From Sulfurospirillum sp. 1612 (lineage in GTDB: Bacteria; Campylobacterota; Campylobacteria; Campylobacterales; Sulfurospirillaceae), in contig NZ_CP140614.1 in assembly GCF_036556685.1 (NCBI RefSeq), forward strand, positions 930,001-994,000: DNA of 64,000 bases, given 5' to 3'. Shown here in pieces: positions 7,738 through 16,210 of this stretch. The notes beneath the pieces were generated by a model. The model saw only the letters and a program-made list of their open reading frames with translations, made no database searches and was not told where the DNA came from. The stretch's first letter is position 1. Every line of letters starts with the position of its first letter. The position numbers and the translations under genes are program-made.

Positions 7738-9093
7738 ATGCTTAAAAGATTGTTGGTACTATTTGCACTATTTGCAACGTTTGCATTTGCGGCGAATGTA
7801 GGGGATGTTACATCCGTGAAGACTATTAAAGTCAACAGGGGTTTAACAAAATTAGGAAAAAGTTGTGTCGAGTGTCATGCCAAACTGACTCCTGGTCATG
7901 TCAATGATTGGCGAGAGAGTAGACACGGTCATGTAGGAGTATCTTGTATCGATTGTCACGTCGTGCAAAAAGATAATCCAATGGCAGCACAAAACTGTAA
8001 AGGGGTTCAAGGTACTGATGTTTATGTGAGTATTTTGGTCAGCCCAAAAACGTGTGGTCGATGTCATGTTAATGAAGTCAAAGAATTTCATCAAAGTGGT
8101 CATGCAAGAGCAGCATTACAAGTGGCTGCAAAACCTTCAATGCAAGCATTGATGCACAAATTTGAAGGTCGAGATGATCCACATCTCAAAAATGCACCAG
8201 AAGCGACAGGGTGTATGCAATGTCACGGTACGGTGATTAAGCTTGATAAAAACAAAAGACCAACTGCTGAGACGTGGCCAAATTATGGTATTGGTAATGT
8301 TTATCCAGATGGTAGTGTTGGAAATTGTAAATCATGCCATTCAGCGCATCGCTTTACGATTACAGAGGCTAGAAAACCGGCAGCTTGTGCTTCATGTCAC
8401 CTCGGACCAGATCATCCGGATATCGAGATTTACAACAACTCCATGCACGGTCATATCTTCAATGCCGAGGGTAATACGTGGAAATACGATTCTGCTCCAG
8501 ATGCTTGGGAACCAGGCGATTATAGAGCACCGACTTGTGCGACTTGTCACATGAGTGGTATTGGTGATCTTAAATCCACACACAATGTGAGCAAGCGACT
8601 CAAATGGAACCTCTGGGCACCGATTTCAAAACTGAGAGATGGTGGCTATGAAACTGCTGTAACAGAGTTTGAAAAAACGGGTAAAGCCACAGCGGGTAAT
8701 CCACTAGCAGGAAATCCAAAAGGAAGTGCTGCAGGACGTGCTGAGATGGAACAAGTTTGTAAATCATGCCATGTTCCAACGCATACTAAAAATTTCTTCA
8801 AAATGGGTGACCAACATGTTGAACTTTATAATAAATATGCAAAAGAAGCCAAAGGTATTATCGATGAGTTGACCAAAAAAGGGTTGATGAAAAAAGATAA
8901 ATGGGCGGATGAAGCATTTAAAACATGGTATCACTTGTGGCATCATGAAGGACGCCGTATGAGACAAGGGGCATTGATGGCAGGACCAGATTATGCTCAT
9001 TGGCATGGTGTTTTTGAATTGCAACAAGATATTAGGGTACTCAGAGATATTTATAAGTACCGTACAGAGAACAACAAGATAGAGCAACCATAA
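7738..9093 (+). CDS. hao: Octahaem hydroxylamine oxidoreductase-like protein, epsilon type
   Basis: 451 residues with a Sec signal peptide (cleavage near FAFA-AN) and eight CxxCH motifs at about 43, 70, 106, 159, 197, 217, 267 and 341. A C-terminal helical region contains PDYAHWHGVFELQQD. Length and haem count fit the epsilonproteobacterial Hao family. Published work on this family assigns reductive activity (nitrite or hydroxylamine to ammonium) rather than ammonia-oxidiser HAO activity. It follows haoC by 23 bases and precedes the nap cluster, so a Nap plus Hao route for nitrate ammonification is inferred. Pentahaem NrfA is excluded by the haem count and the absence of a CxxCK motif. Whether the P460 cross-link tyrosine is absent needs alignment. 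Confidence 0.9.
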   Translation: MLKRLLVLFALFATFAFAANVGDVTSVKTIKVNRGLTKLGKSCVECHAKLTPGHVNDWRESRHGHVGVSCIDCHVVQKDNPMAAQNCKGVQGTDVYVSILVSPKTCGRCHVNEVKEFHQSGHARAALQVAAKPSMQALMHKFEGRDDPHLKNAPEATGCMQCHGTVIKLDKNKRPTAETWPNYGIGNVYPDGSVGNCKSCHSAHRFTITEARKPAACASCHLGPDHPDIEIYNNSMHGHIFNAEGNTWKYDSAPDAWEPGDYRAPTCATCHMSGIGDLKSTHNVSKRLKWNLWAPISKLRDGGYETAVTEFEKTGKATAGNPLAGNPKGSAAGRAEMEQVCKSCHVPTHTKNFFKMGDQHVELYNKYAKEAKGIIDELTKKGLMKKDKWADEAFKTWYHLWHHEGRRMRQGALMAGPDYAHWHGVFELQQDIRVLRDIYKYRTENNKIEQP

Positions 9094-10102: not shown

Positions 10103-10753
10103 ATGATTGAAAAATTAGCAGCAACTCCTCTATTAAAATCTTTGCCAAAAGAGATAATCGAGGAGATTGCCTCCTTTAGCAAACTGAAATCTTTTGCTAA
10201 AGGGGAGATACTGTTTTATGAAAATGATGCAGTTGATACGATTTATTATCTTTTAAGTGGATCCCTCAAATTTTATAAAGTGGATCGATTTGATAATGAA
10301 ATATTTTTATACAAACTCCCTAAAAATTCTCTCATATTTGATTTGTCAAAATTGTGTGATGAGTTCATCATCCATTGTTATGCCAATGCTGAATTTTTAG
10401 AAGAGAGTGAAGTGTTGGCTATTGATTCTCAACCATTCAAACACTTAATGTCTACCAATCAAAATTTTCTTCAATGCATACTCAAAGAGGCCTTTTTGAT
10501 GATTCAGCAACTTCAGTGTGTCATCAGTCGTGATGTGGTGTTTGATGGGGCTGCAAAAGTGGCGCATATGATTTGTGAAGATCTTGAAAATTTTAATAAA
10601 CTCAAAAAACATGAAATTGCTTATATGTTGCACATACAGCCAGAGACGTTGTCAAGGATTTTGAAGAAATTCGTGAGGACCAATGTCATCATGATTGAAC
10701 AAAATAATGTGATTATCGTGGACAAAGAAAAACTAAAAAGTATATTTTCGTAG
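10103..10753 (+). CDS. Crp/Fnr family transcriptional regulator
   Basis: 216 residues: an N-terminal cyclic-nucleotide-binding-like beta barrel (about 10-110), a dimerisation helix (about 118-145) and a C-terminal winged helix. The recognition helix reads QPETLSRILKKF (about 179-190), and its E-x-x-S-R pattern is the one that reads TTGA(C/T) half sites in Fnr-type proteins. The N-terminal cysteine cluster that carries the Fnr iron-sulfur centre is absent (first cysteines near 85 and 92), so it is not a classical oxygen-sensing Fnr. It begins 8 bases after the parvulin gene. The TTGAC-N4-GTCA boxes at 6983 and 12131 are its likely targets. Confidence 0.87.
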   Translation: MIEKLAATPLLKSLPKEIIEEIASFSKLKSFAKGEILFYENDAVDTIYYLLSGSLKFYKVDRFDNEIFLYKLPKNSLIFDLSKLCDEFIIHCYANAEFLEESEVLAIDSQPFKHLMSTNQNFLQCILKEAFLMIQQLQCVISRDVVFDGAAKVAHMICEDLENFNKLKKHEIAYMLHIQPETLSRILKKFVRTNVIMIEQNNVIIVDKEKLKSIFS

Positions 10754-12202: not shown

Positions 12203-15031
12203 ATGTCATTATCAAGAAGAGATTTTTTGAAATCAACTGCTGCGGCAAGTGCGGCGGCTGCTGTTGGCATCTCAATCCCCAAAGATGCGCTCGCCGCATC
12301 TGAGGCAACTCAAAAGGATTGGAGATGGGATAAGGCGGTTTGTAGGTTCTGCGGTACCGGTTGTGGTATCATGATGGCTACAAAAAATGGAAAGATTGTT
12401 GCCGTGAAAGGTGATCCTGCCGCTCCGGTCAATCGAGGATTGAACTGTATTAAAGGGTACTTTAACGCCAAAATCATGTACGGCGCCGACAGATTAACCC
12501 AGCCACTTCTTAGAGTTGATGCAAATGGTAACTTTGATAAGCATGGTAGATTTGCACCGATTAGCTGGAAACGCGCATTTGATGAGATGGAAAAACATAT
12601 CCGATACGCGTTGAAAAAAAGTGGTCCAGAAGGAATCGGAGTCTTCGCCAGTGGTCAATATACCGTCATGGAAGGATATACCGCTCTCAAAATGATGAAG
12701 GGTGGATTTAGATCCAATGCCATTGACCCAAATGCCAGACATTGTATGGCCTCAGCAGTTGTTGGCTTCTACCAAACTTTTGGAATCGATGAGCCAAGCG
12801 GTTGTTATGATGACATTGAACTTACCGATACGGTTGTGACTTGGGGTGCTAATATGGCAGAGATGCATCCGATTCTCTGGTCTCGAGTTACGGATCGTAA
12901 ACTAACAGACCCAGAACGAGTTAAAGTGGTCAATCTCTCTACCTATACATCAAGAACTTCAGATTTAGCAGATATTGAAATCATTTTTAGCCCCAATACT
13001 GATTTAGCAATTTGGAATTATTTAGCGCATGAAATTGTTTATAATCATCCCGAAGCCATTGATTGGGATTTTGTCAAAGAGCATATGATTTTTGCCGTAG
13101 GGCCTGTTAATATCGGATACGGTATGAGACGAAAAGGTGAGAAATCTATCACTCCGGTGAATGCTGATGGCAGTGCAGGAAAATACAGCGCCTTAGAGAT
13201 GGAAACCATTAATAAAGAGATGGCCAAAAAAGTTTCTGCCAAAGAAGCCCCTTCACTAGCACCTTATGGCTATAAAGAAGGCGATGTGATGGAAAATATC
13301 CCAGGAACACTCAAACATTGGGAAATCTCTTTTCAAGAGTACAAAAAATCACTGGCTCCTTTTACATTGGATTATGTTGCTAAAATATCAAAAGGTGATC
13401 CCAACGAATCCTTAGAAGATTTCAAGAAAAAGCTCCAAGCATTGGCTGATCTTTATGTCGAAAAAGGCAGAAAAGTCGTGAGCTTTTGGACGATGGGTAT
13501 GAACCAACACACTAGAGGAACGTGGGATAATACTCTCTCTTACAATGTTCACTTTATGTTAAATAAACAAGCCAAACCCGGCAGTGGTGCATTCTCCCTA
13601 ACCGGACAACCAAGTGCGTGTGGAACGGCTAGAGAAGTGGGGACGTTCTGTCACAGACTCCCAGCAGATCTCATGGTAGCCAATCCAAAACACCGAAAAA
13701 TTGCTGAGAAAAAATGGGCCGTGCCAGAGGGTACGATCAATCCTGTGGGCGTACAACATATCATGAAAATTCATAGAGATATCGAAGATGGATTGATTAA
13801 ATTCGCTTGGGTTAATGTCTGTAATGCTTACCAAGATAGTGCGAGTGCCAATCATTGGATCAAAGCTGCTCGTGAGATGGACAACTTCATCGTGACTAGT
13901 GATGGATATCCGGGAATCTCCGCAAAAGTTTCTGATCTTATTTTACCAAGTGCTATGATTTATGAAAAATGGGGTGGCTATGGTAATGCAGAGCGACGAA
14001 CGCAGTTGTGGCGACAACAAGTCCTCCCTGTTGGTGAAGCGATGAGTGATACTTGGCAATGGGTAGAACTCTCCAAACGATTTACCGTCAAAGACCTTTG
14101 GGGAGCATACGCGCCATCAGGTCCTAGAAAAAAAGCGCTTCCAGATGTCATCGCAAAAGCAAAAGCAATGGGATATAACGAAGATACGACAATGTTTGAA
14201 ATTTTGTTTGCAAATGATAAAGCAAAAAGTTATAAAATCGATCTTAATAAATTTCCACAAAAAGGATTTGATAATTCAGAATGTATCGGTGATGCTAGAA
14301 ATGTTATCGGTAGTGATGGGAAAGTCTTCAAAGGTTATGGTTTTATGCTTCATGAATATCTTTTTGAAGAGTATGCGAGCTTTGGTCGTGGTCATGGACA
14401 TGACTTGGCACCATTTGATATCTACCATAGAGTACGAGGACTCAAATGGCCTGTCGTTGATGGCAAAGAGACCCAATGGCGCTTTAATGTCAAGTATGAT
14501 CCGTATGCAAGAAAAGCCAATCCAGATGGCGATTTTGCCTTTTATGGACCACTTGCAAAAGCACTGCCATCAGGCGATTTACAAGGTATTAAAGACAAAA
14601 CGAAAAAATCATTAAAAAATAAAGCAAAAATCTTTGCCCGTCCTTATATGGATCCACCAGAAATGCCAGATAGTAACTACAATATGTGGCTCTGTACGGG
14701 TCGTGTTTTGGAACATTGGCATAGTGGTACTATGACGATGCGTGTGCCAGAACTTTATCGTGCTGTTCCTGAAGCTCTTTGTTATATGAACCCACTTGAT
14801 GCTAAAGAAAAAGAGATAAAAGAGGGCGAATTGGTATGGGTTGAGAGTCGCCGTGGTAAAGTCAAAGCACGTGTACAAACCAGAGGAAGAAATAGACCAG
14901 CACAAGGCTTGGTTTTTGTTCCGTGGTTTGATGAAAAAGTATTTATCAATAAAGTCTGTCTCGATGCGACATGTCCGATGTCAAAACAAACAGATTATAA
15001 AAAATGTGCGGTTAAGATCTACAAAGCATAA
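12203..15031 (+). CDS. napA: Periplasmic nitrate reductase catalytic subunit NapA
   Basis: 942 residues, the long epsilonproteobacterial form of NapA. A twin-arginine signal (SRRDFLKST, about 4-12) directs folded export. Cysteines at about 47, 50, 54 and 82 (CRFCGTGCG, then LNCIKGY) bind the [4Fe-4S] cluster, and Cys181 in [10 protein letters not shown] is the expected molybdenum ligand. The C-terminal molybdopterin dinucleotide-binding domain is present. NapA reduces nitrate to nitrite using electrons from NapB and NapGH. The start has a strong GGAGG, and the promoter carries the Fnr-type box. The downstream neighbours are a repeat array and then napG. Confidence 0.97.
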
Positions 15032-15034
15032 AAA

Positions 15035-15330
15035 GTGCGTGAATTGATAGATGCATACGACCGCAAGGTTGTGCTTTAGTAGTGCGTGAATTTTAAAGGA
15101 ATTTACTTCCTGAGTTGATAAATTCATACGACCGCAAGGTTGTGCTTTAGTAGTGCGTGAATTTTAAAGGAATTTACTTCCTGAGTTGATAAATTCATAC
15201 GACCGCAAGGTTGTGCTTTAGTAGTGCGTGAATTTTAAAGGAATTTACTTCCTGAGTTGATAAATTCATACGACCGCAAGGTTGTGCTTTAGTAGTGCGT
15301 GAATTTTAAAGGAATTTACTTCCTTTAAAA
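15035..15330 (+). repeat. 71-bp tandem repeat array between napA and napG
   Basis: One truncated unit (15035-15081), three perfect identical 71-bp units (starting 15082, 15153 and 15224) and a partial final unit (15295-15330). Units begin GTGCGTGAATTTTAAAGGAA. Each repeats a hairpin ACGACC-GCAA-GGTTGT with a GNRA-type tetraloop (15057, 15128, 15199, 15270) and a second short stem AGGAA/TTCCT. GTGAATTT and AAATTCAT within a unit can close a larger stem by 8 bp with one G-U. Because 71 is not a multiple of three and stops occur in all frames, it is not coding. It lies inside the predicted nap transcript, 3 bases after the napA stop. Confidence 0.93.
15304..15330 (+). promoter_or_regulatory. Extended 11-bp hairpin abutting the napG start codon
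   Basis: TTTTAAAGGAA (15304-15314) pairs perfectly with TTCCTTTAAAA (15320-15330) around TTTAC. It ends one base before the napG ATG at 15332, and the only Shine-Dalgarno-like AAAGGA lies within the stem. The internal repeat units have only the 5-bp version, so the last copy was altered next to the gene. Confidence 0.6.
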
Positions 15331-15331
15331 G

Positions 15332-16210
15332 ATGTATAAAATGAAAAAGAGGTTTGTTTTGAAGAGTCCTAAATCAAAAAAAATAAAGATAAGTGAGCGA
15401 AGGAGATTTATCTCTTTAGTAACTCAAAGTATCGGGATTACGGCTTTGGGTGGTTTTATTTGGAGTGGTTATTTGCAAGAGGCAAAAGCGACTCCTTTGA
15501 TATTGCGACCACCGGGAGCTTTGAAGGAAGATGATTTTCTAAAGACGTGTATCAAATGTGGATTGTGTGCTGAGGCGTGCAAGAACAGAAGCTCCAATCC
15601 TGATCAAACGCATCAAACTTCGACTTTGATTATGGCAAAGCCCGGAGATGGGATGCCAATGGGGACGCCTTATTTTATACCGCGCTCAATTCCTTGTACG
15701 ATGTGTGAGGATATCCCCTGCGTAGAGGCTTGTCCGAGTGGATCTTTGGATAAAAATCTTTTGATTGATATGGCAAAAAATCGAACCAAAATGGATATTA
15801 ATAAAGCGAAAATGGGCGTGGCGATGATCGATCCTCACGCATGTATTGCTTATTGGGGAATCCAATGTGATGCCTGTTTTCGTGCGTGTCCTCTTTTGAA
15901 TACCGCCATTACACTAGAGTTGAAGAAAAACGATCGGACGGGTAAACATGCCATGTTGCTTCCATTTGTACACGCTGATGCGTGTACGGGATGTGGATTG
16001 TGCGAACATGCTTGTGTGACCGAAAAGGCAGCGATTCGTGTCTTGCCTGTTGAGGTGGCACTTGGAAAAGCTGGAGATCGTTATATAAAAGGCTGGGATA
16101 AAGCAGATGAAAATCGACTCGAAGGGGTCTCAACCAAAACAACAACTCAAACTAAACGCAGTGCTAAAAATCCGACAGATTATTTGAATGAAGGGGTGAG
16201 TTATGAGTAA
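15332..16210 (+). CDS. napG: Ferredoxin-type protein NapG, quinol dehydrogenase periplasmic component
   Basis: 292 residues. A twin-arginine-like signal (SERRRFISLV, about 21-30) is followed by four [4Fe-4S] cysteine blocks: CIKCGLCAEAC, CTMCEDIPCVEAC, CIAYWGIQCDACFRAC and CTGCGLCEHAC. NapG with NapH forms the menaquinol dehydrogenase feeding NapB/NapA, which explains the absence of napC. Two starts are possible (15332 or 15341); both lie directly after the last repeat hairpin. The 3' end overlaps napH by 8 bases. Confidence 0.95.
   Translation: MYKMKKRFVLKSPKSKKIKISERRRFISLVTQSIGITALGGFIWSGYLQEAKATPLILRPPGALKEDDFLKTCIKCGLCAEACKNRSSNPDQTHQTSTLIMAKPGDGMPMGTPYFIPRSIPCTMCEDIPCVEACPSGSLDKNLLIDMAKNRTKMDINKAKMGVAMIDPHACIAYWGIQCDACFRACPLLNTAITLELKKNDRTGKHAMLLPFVHADACTGCGLCEHACVTEKAAIRVLPVEVALGKAGDRYIKGWDKADENRLEGVSTKTTTQTKRSAKNPTDYLNEGVSYE

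Follow-up and report, generated by a model that had tools for sequence, protein, structure and literature searches.

A tandem array between napA and napG belongs to a dispersed two-hairpin RNA family of Campylobacterota that may mark downstream 5′ boundaries

Structured sites between the cistrons of an operon are known as the selective RNA processing and stabilisation stem-loops of cip-cel in C. cellulolyticum (PMC4423207) and of cggR in B. subtilis (PMC11780869), where cleavage and hairpin-protected products set gene ratios. In C. cellulolyticum, operon stoichiometry is set by the intergenic stem-loops, and it is mainly 3′ ends that are protected (PMC4423207); in B. subtilis, RNase Y prefers G|A with U upstream, and the main effect of structure lying 3′ of its cut is a more stable product (PMC11780869). 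The BOX elements of Streptococcus pneumoniae are dispersed, small, structured repeats that combine boxA, boxB and boxC modules in varying tandem number; they probably alter co-transcribed genes, and their effect depends on orientation (PMC3049150). In Helicobacter pylori, a relative that also uses RNase J, a 5′ stem-loop of vacA is reported to influence expression of the transcript (PMC4843948). The array described here is likewise a structured site between cistrons, and it belongs to a family that shares dispersal, modular build and variable tandem number with BOX elements.

The window analysed is a stretch of 64,000 nucleotides of Sulfurospirillum sp. 1612 (NZ_CP140614.1, positions 930,001 to 994,000), in which TRF finds a single tandem array, at 15040–15324, with a period of 71, 4.0 copies and 98% matches. 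The array lies between napA (12203..15031; an ORF matching the NCBIfam NapA equivalog at 1417 bits) and napG (15359..16210; NapG equivalog, 338 bits), and all of its features, like both genes, are on the + strand; the napA stop is at 15031 and the NapG frame follows, as the initial annotation had it. Upstream of the nap operon lies, at 7738–9093, a gene for a multihaem cytochrome c that weakly resembles hydrazine dehydrogenase; next come a peptidyl-prolyl isomerase-like gene and, at 10103–10753, a regulator of the Crp/Fnr type.

The 71-bp copies starting at 15111, 15182 and 15253 are mutually identical, and that at 15040 has 96% identity to them; the four together span 15040–15323. A linker remnant, GTGCGTGAATT, stands at the left end (15035..15045) and the right edge of the last copy diverges in sequence, so that the earlier count of three perfect and two partial units was a fair one. 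Hairpin 1 (ACGACC-GCAA-GGTTGT), which had been predicted for each unit, is found four times, at 15057–15072, 15128–15143, 15199–15214 and 15270–15285, and each time it is followed by the conserved linker GCTTTAGTAGTGCGTGAATT (15073–15092, 15144–15163, 15215–15234 and 15286–15305). The second hairpin of the family, 11 bp including two closing U-A pairs, is complete only in copy 4, where it reads TTAAAGGAA-TTTAC-TTCCTTTAA (15306..15328, from sequence, alignment A1 and pair counts) and is lengthened by flanking TT/AA; it is followed by the tail AAGATGTAT (15329..15337), for which the family consensus is AAGATGACA. With covariance model R1 of the family, copies 1–3 score about 52 bits (51.5 for copy 1, 15040..15110) against 77 for copy 4 (15253..15344; 77.4 bits, E 4e-12), which is the sole canonical element; copies 2 (15111..15181) and 3 (15182..15252), delimited by TRF, identity and the same model, have a truncated hairpin 2. 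Loss of the 3′ arm of hairpin 2 in copies 1–3 accounts for the period of 71 bp in place of the usual 74–86, and the lack of a full hairpin 2 in these copies suggests that the array may be partly decayed.

As a whole the array folds better than 100 of 100 dinucleotide shuffles (z = −4.1), whereas a lone 71-nt unit folds more weakly (z = −1.9) and is equalled by 12 of 200 shuffles. The AGGAA/TTCCT stem with a longer-range closing stem, as first proposed, stands as a possible fold of copies 1–3 but is not their minimum-energy fold, which is a different hairpin. The first ATG in the napG ORF is at 15332; a TTG at 15359 is preceded by the Shine-Dalgarno (SD) sequence AAGAGG at 15347–15352 and is probably the start, since starts in the family sit about 30 nt past hairpin 2.

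Searched with BLAST, the full 71-bp unit has no further match in the 2.38-Mb genome at E≤0.001. The idea that the array is unique in the genome was nonetheless discarded as a product of limited sensitivity, exposed by pattern and covariance-model searches, the latter of which do find divergent relatives of the unit. The nap array is an expanded, partly decayed family member and no nap-specific device; the restriction to nap operons supposed at the outset gives way to a dispersed family that precedes more than 100 different gene families.

In related genomes, BLAST returned many partial matches to the unit, often in tandem, and reading them in alignment gave a common anatomy: hairpin 1, a GCUUYAGU linker, GAAUU, hairpin 2 and the tail AAGNNGACA. 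Hairpin 1 is variable in sequence, its loop usually a GNRA-type tetraloop; GCUUYAGU, in which Y is C in 25% of copies, is followed by a linker of 6–8 nt with a final G and then AAUU; hairpin 2 is variable, about 19–25 nt, and AAG NNG ACA stands between it and the gene downstream. In relatives of the same genus the linker pattern matches at up to 26 places per genome, and at none when reversed; a stricter finder gave 449 matches (278 unique) across 1.4 Mb of loci and none in reversed sequence. GAAUU is kept in most, not all, of the copies found by the model, and its invariance is partly by construction, as it belonged to the finder pattern. Hairpin-2 loops enlarged by insertions (for example CTCACAGAGAGTGCAAGCACAAGG) around an intact stem were seen at L089 1400–1509 and at L008 around 276–350.

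The two-hairpin structure covaries. Among 61 units with 17 pairs, pairing is kept in 90.9% of cells compared with 65.7% after shuffling, and 240 cells are doubly changed in a compensatory manner against a shuffled mean of 75.7; support for the pairs collapses once partners slide by one column. The lower value for hairpin 1 (77.6%) reflects its two registers, one bulged (CU/AG or CA/UG base) and one fully paired (ACGACC). A second set of 40 matches, mostly outside the model but with an alignment fitted to it, is 95.9% paired, with 191 double changes against 56.6 shuffled. In the pairs of hairpin 2, G·U outnumbers A·C by 155 to 24 (191 distinct sequences, p about 1e-24), and by 182 to 51 with a finder neutral to both, an excess that identifies the transcript strand, as opposed to its complement or duplex DNA. 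That this is a genuine family, active at the level of the transcript, we regard as virtually certain. The structured RNA element suspected at first is borne out, while this bias and the almost sense-only placement described below count against the DNA iterons that had been offered as another role. Docking of CsrA on AAAGGA, a further suggestion, finds no footing either: the GGA lies in the paired, variable arm of hairpin 2 and not in a hairpin loop, and other members have unrelated stem sequences in its place.

The bases preceding GAATT in the linker co-vary strictly with bases 4–6 of the tail; for the base before the invariant linker G and the tail, the 278 unique units give T:A 135, G:G 130, G:A 8 and T:G 0. 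Base pairing that could account for this co-variation was sought in the same units and none was found; shared ancestry of the types may contribute. An outer helix between CUUYAGU and sequence 5′ of hairpin 1 was rejected: the duplex energy was −2.00 with the real flanks and −1.95 ± 0.04 with swapped ones, and copies with C at position Y showed no enrichment of G. Also rejected was a four-codon leader ORF (AUG ACA GUU AAA UAA) in type-A tails, which, as judged by eye, loses its frame in several internal copies and lacks an SD.

At the Rfam gathering cut-off there were no matches for the array, the window or 14 member loci, and a relaxed search with strong members returned only sub-threshold, unrelated matches. 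The family is absent from Rfam 15 and from the literature searched; as that search was limited, with Weinberg et al. 2017 covered only via Rfam, we call it very probably undescribed.

The genome of Sulfurospirillum sp. 1612 holds at least 23 copies with model R1 (E≤1); copy counts are lower bounds, as only some of the first-pass candidates were scored. Multiple copies precede rplJ (4), rpoZ (2), a flagellar rod/hook gene (2), a DUF2603 gene (4) and napG (4), single copies precede tuf, rplL, rpmA, a prpB-like gene, a FeoA-domain gene and rpe, and one copy lies within a tRNA cluster. In one order of Campylobacterota the family is present in 112 of 399 genomes and 28 of 87 genera, and in a sample of the phylum all of the carriers (47 of 347) come from that same order; the copy-richest relatives have 84–115 copies each. 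When 84,980 species genomes were scanned with the pattern, nearly all of the matches listed came from Sulfurospirillum, Sulfurimonas, Sulfurovum or from Campylobacterales or Campylobacteraceae that are unclassified. Carriage by viruses and by a Flavobacterium contig (L197) was dismissed, as the lone viral-contig match and the contig both fail the model. One contig labelled as a Methylococcaceae MAG does match it (L219 45–136, − strand, 64.5 bits), which may reflect mis-binning or transfer.

Of 195 arrays, only a few lack a same-strand gene downstream once short genes missed by the caller are counted; most apparent exceptions are genes of this kind (rplL, rpoZ, soxYZ) overlooked by a simple caller. 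The true exceptions are element-like sequences antisense in a tRNA-Cys/tRNA-Ser spacer, one in the own genome (C1:35882–35969, equal to L153 2383–2470) and one at L252 2206–2297; the two genera concerned share the Gly-Leu-Cys-Ser tRNA cluster in which both sit. The upstream gene is on the same strand for 153 arrays and on the opposite strand for 21, with a median gap of 39 nt between its stop and the element in the 153, and to judge from this arrangement the two are probably co-transcribed.

Two types of element can be told apart by their tails and their distance to the start codon, and they coexist within single genomes and even single arrays, so they do not simply reflect species divergence. 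In the GG-type (tail AAGGRGACA) the start codon lies 12–16 nt past hairpin 2 in 82 of 94 arrays, a distance at which the tail itself supplies the SD; in the GA-type (AAGATGACA, AAGAAAACA) the median is 31 nt, and 74 of 92 arrays have an SD-like motif 9–40 nt past hairpin 2. The downstream genes form 112 clusters of unrelated proteins. Junctions that recur across species or genera include map-infA, grpE-dnaK, pyrH-rpoZ, rplJ-rplL, aroA-ispH, rplI-hslV, hemB-argF and fumC-sucC, several of these names being assigned by eye from the sequences. The orthologous map-infA junction has 1 to 4 units depending on the species within the genus, and adjoining tandem units have hairpin 2 in common in 57% of cases compared with 0.4% of random pairs, which is consistent with recent expansion or homogenisation; the recent expansion and variable copy number first read from the nap repeats alone are upheld for the family.

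Elements also adjoin ribosomal RNA genes. In S. arcachonense DSM 9755 (L277) one element (226–316) ends at the 16S start and another (2372–2461) just before the 23S start, and in two further genomes, with three and two operons (G330 and G370; loci L325–L329), an element ends at the 16S start in every rrn leader inspected. Additional copies lie in a 16S-tRNA spacer (L325 4653–4745) and after tRNA-Ala (L277 2121–2207). Hairpin 2 stops about 13 nt short of where the mature 16S should begin, as estimated from E. coli, a distance that resembles that between hairpin 2 and start codons in mRNAs. In the own genome, the single rrn operon seen is without the element, which is therefore not obligatory for rRNA maturation, and its use there is specific to certain lineages. 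The leaders in L325–L329 also have, 5′ of the element, a GNRA hairpin followed by TTCTTTACA or ACTTTACA (CACA-GAAA-TGTG-TTCTTTACA and ATGTA-GCAA-TACAT-ACTTTACA), likely the canonical boxB-boxA.

The fixed distance to start codons and rRNA ends, together with the almost exclusive sense placement, is best read as the work of a signal by which the 5′ end of an RNA is defined or protected. The explanation that fits best, advanced tentatively, is an intercistronic processing and stabilisation module. The polycistronic transcript or pre-rRNA would fold into hairpin 1, linker and hairpin 2 and would then be cut by an endonuclease, with RNase Y as the most plausible candidate, in or beside the single-stranded linker at the conserved G|AAUU; the downstream product would start at hairpin 2 as a shield against the 5′–3′ exonuclease RNase J, giving the downstream gene a separate, stabler message with a free ribosome-binding site. 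Each further copy would increase the capacity for cleavage or shielding. All 8 of the carriers examined have RNase Y and RNase J and lack RNase E/G, and the pattern for RNase J and RNase E/G agrees with that reported for the class (PMC5874925). The element places G|AAUU immediately 5′ of hairpin 2, in keeping with an RNase Y specificity that is loose and borrowed from Firmicutes, and the 153 same-strand arrays set a structured element between co-directional neighbours, as a processing site would be. The mRNA stabilisation considered initially thus stays a candidate role, but in the other direction: it had been taken to favour napA, whereas the conserved spacing is to the downstream gene, which makes the 5′ end of the downstream message the likelier beneficiary. 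The nap array itself is a tandemly expanded member of the family, whose elements, with much the same reserve, would act in cis to mark the 5′ boundary of a downstream RNA unit within a longer transcript. The processing model assigns no job to hairpin 1, to the strictly kept GCUUYAGU or to the co-variation of linker and tail.

Much of this placement could also arise if hairpin 2 and an SD at fixed distance kept an internal ribosome-binding site open, independently of upstream translation and with no cleavage. The SD-like GG-type tail, the SD-like motifs after the GA-type and the many downstream genes of the translation machinery speak for such a role; translation, however, cannot be the role where the same element directly abuts untranslated 16S and 23S rRNA, the GA-type has an identical structure although its SD lies outside the element, and upstream tandem copies are distant from any start codon, all of which make this account unlikely. 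The rRNA sites bring to mind a nut-like antitermination signal, in which the GNRA hairpin 1 and CUUYA would correspond to boxB-boxA and load Nus factors (NusB/S10), so that RNA polymerase could cross the untranslated spacers of operons and of rrn. E. coli rrn antitermination sites occur before 16S and 23S, as some of the elements do, and a GNRA hairpin directly followed by CUUUA also occurs in the rrn leader region of L325–L329. Yet those leaders hold their boxA-like TTCTTTACA or ACTTTACA apart from the GCTTTAGT of the element, the third U is replaced by C in a quarter of copies, and antitermination would call for neither hairpin 2 nor a fixed spacing between it and the start codon; we think this reading distinctly unlikely.

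The dispersal of the family, its high copy number and its patchiness among genera would suit a selfish or mobile repeat (MITE, REP or BOX-like) that is tolerated where the sense RNA is untranslated and keeps its structure for its own mobility; the tandem arrays homogenise, and the S. arcachonense rrn leader resembles a filled site beside the empty one of the own genome. This too is decidedly improbable given the almost sense-only orientation, the fixed spacing to start codons, the retention at orthologous junctions, the selection on the transcript evident in the G·U bias, the failure of the viral match and the finding of 0 copies in 15 regions flanking Y1-transposase (Y1_Tnp) genes of carrier genomes. 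As for a ligand-responsive riboswitch or leader regulator, a covarying two-hairpin structure at ribosome-binding sites and in tandem would suit it, but the variety of the downstream proteins, the tens to more than 100 copies per genome, the lack of an Rfam match and the location mainly inside operons render it extremely improbable.

Processing and stabilisation thus remains the preferred reading, and it admits an extension that we consider possible but doubtful: one homologous, general-purpose 5′-boundary module, used at dozens to more than 100 operon junctions and at the 5′ ends of 16S and 23S, might be cleaved at a constant position by machinery that does not depend on RNase E, perhaps aided by an RNA-binding protein of its own that reads GCUUYAGU and the co-varying linker-tail loop, and its tandem number might tune gene ratios. 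The family occupies the ribosome-binding sites of core genes (infA, dnaK, rplL, rpoZ, tuf) as well as rRNA 5′ ends, in a widespread bacterial group without RNase E/G, and so offers a concrete and testable way into the question of how these bacteria keep the genes of an operon separate and in balance; a carrier in culture is available in S. arcachonense DSM 9755.

REP/BIME and RAYT-linked repeats are likewise hairpin repeats found intergenically and within operons, but REP/BIME are inverted pairs and the copies here are direct and oriented. BOX elements, in a different phylum and of different layout, have no reported fixed distance to start codons (PMC3049150), whereas the family is almost sense-only with covarying stems. 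The vacA stem-loop is a single site in one leader, with no homology shown to the family. With rrn boxB-boxA the elements have in common a GNRA hairpin followed by CUUUA and, in some carriers, placement at 16S and 23S; unlike it, they add hairpin 2 and a fixed tail and belong mostly to mRNAs, and the leaders hold a separate boxA-like motif. The cip-cel and cggR stem-loops are, like the elements here, structured sites between cistrons, and the cleavage known for them is predicted for the family; those stem-loops are individual and unrelated, whereas here one homologous family with a conserved core recurs at many junctions and stands before rRNA as well.
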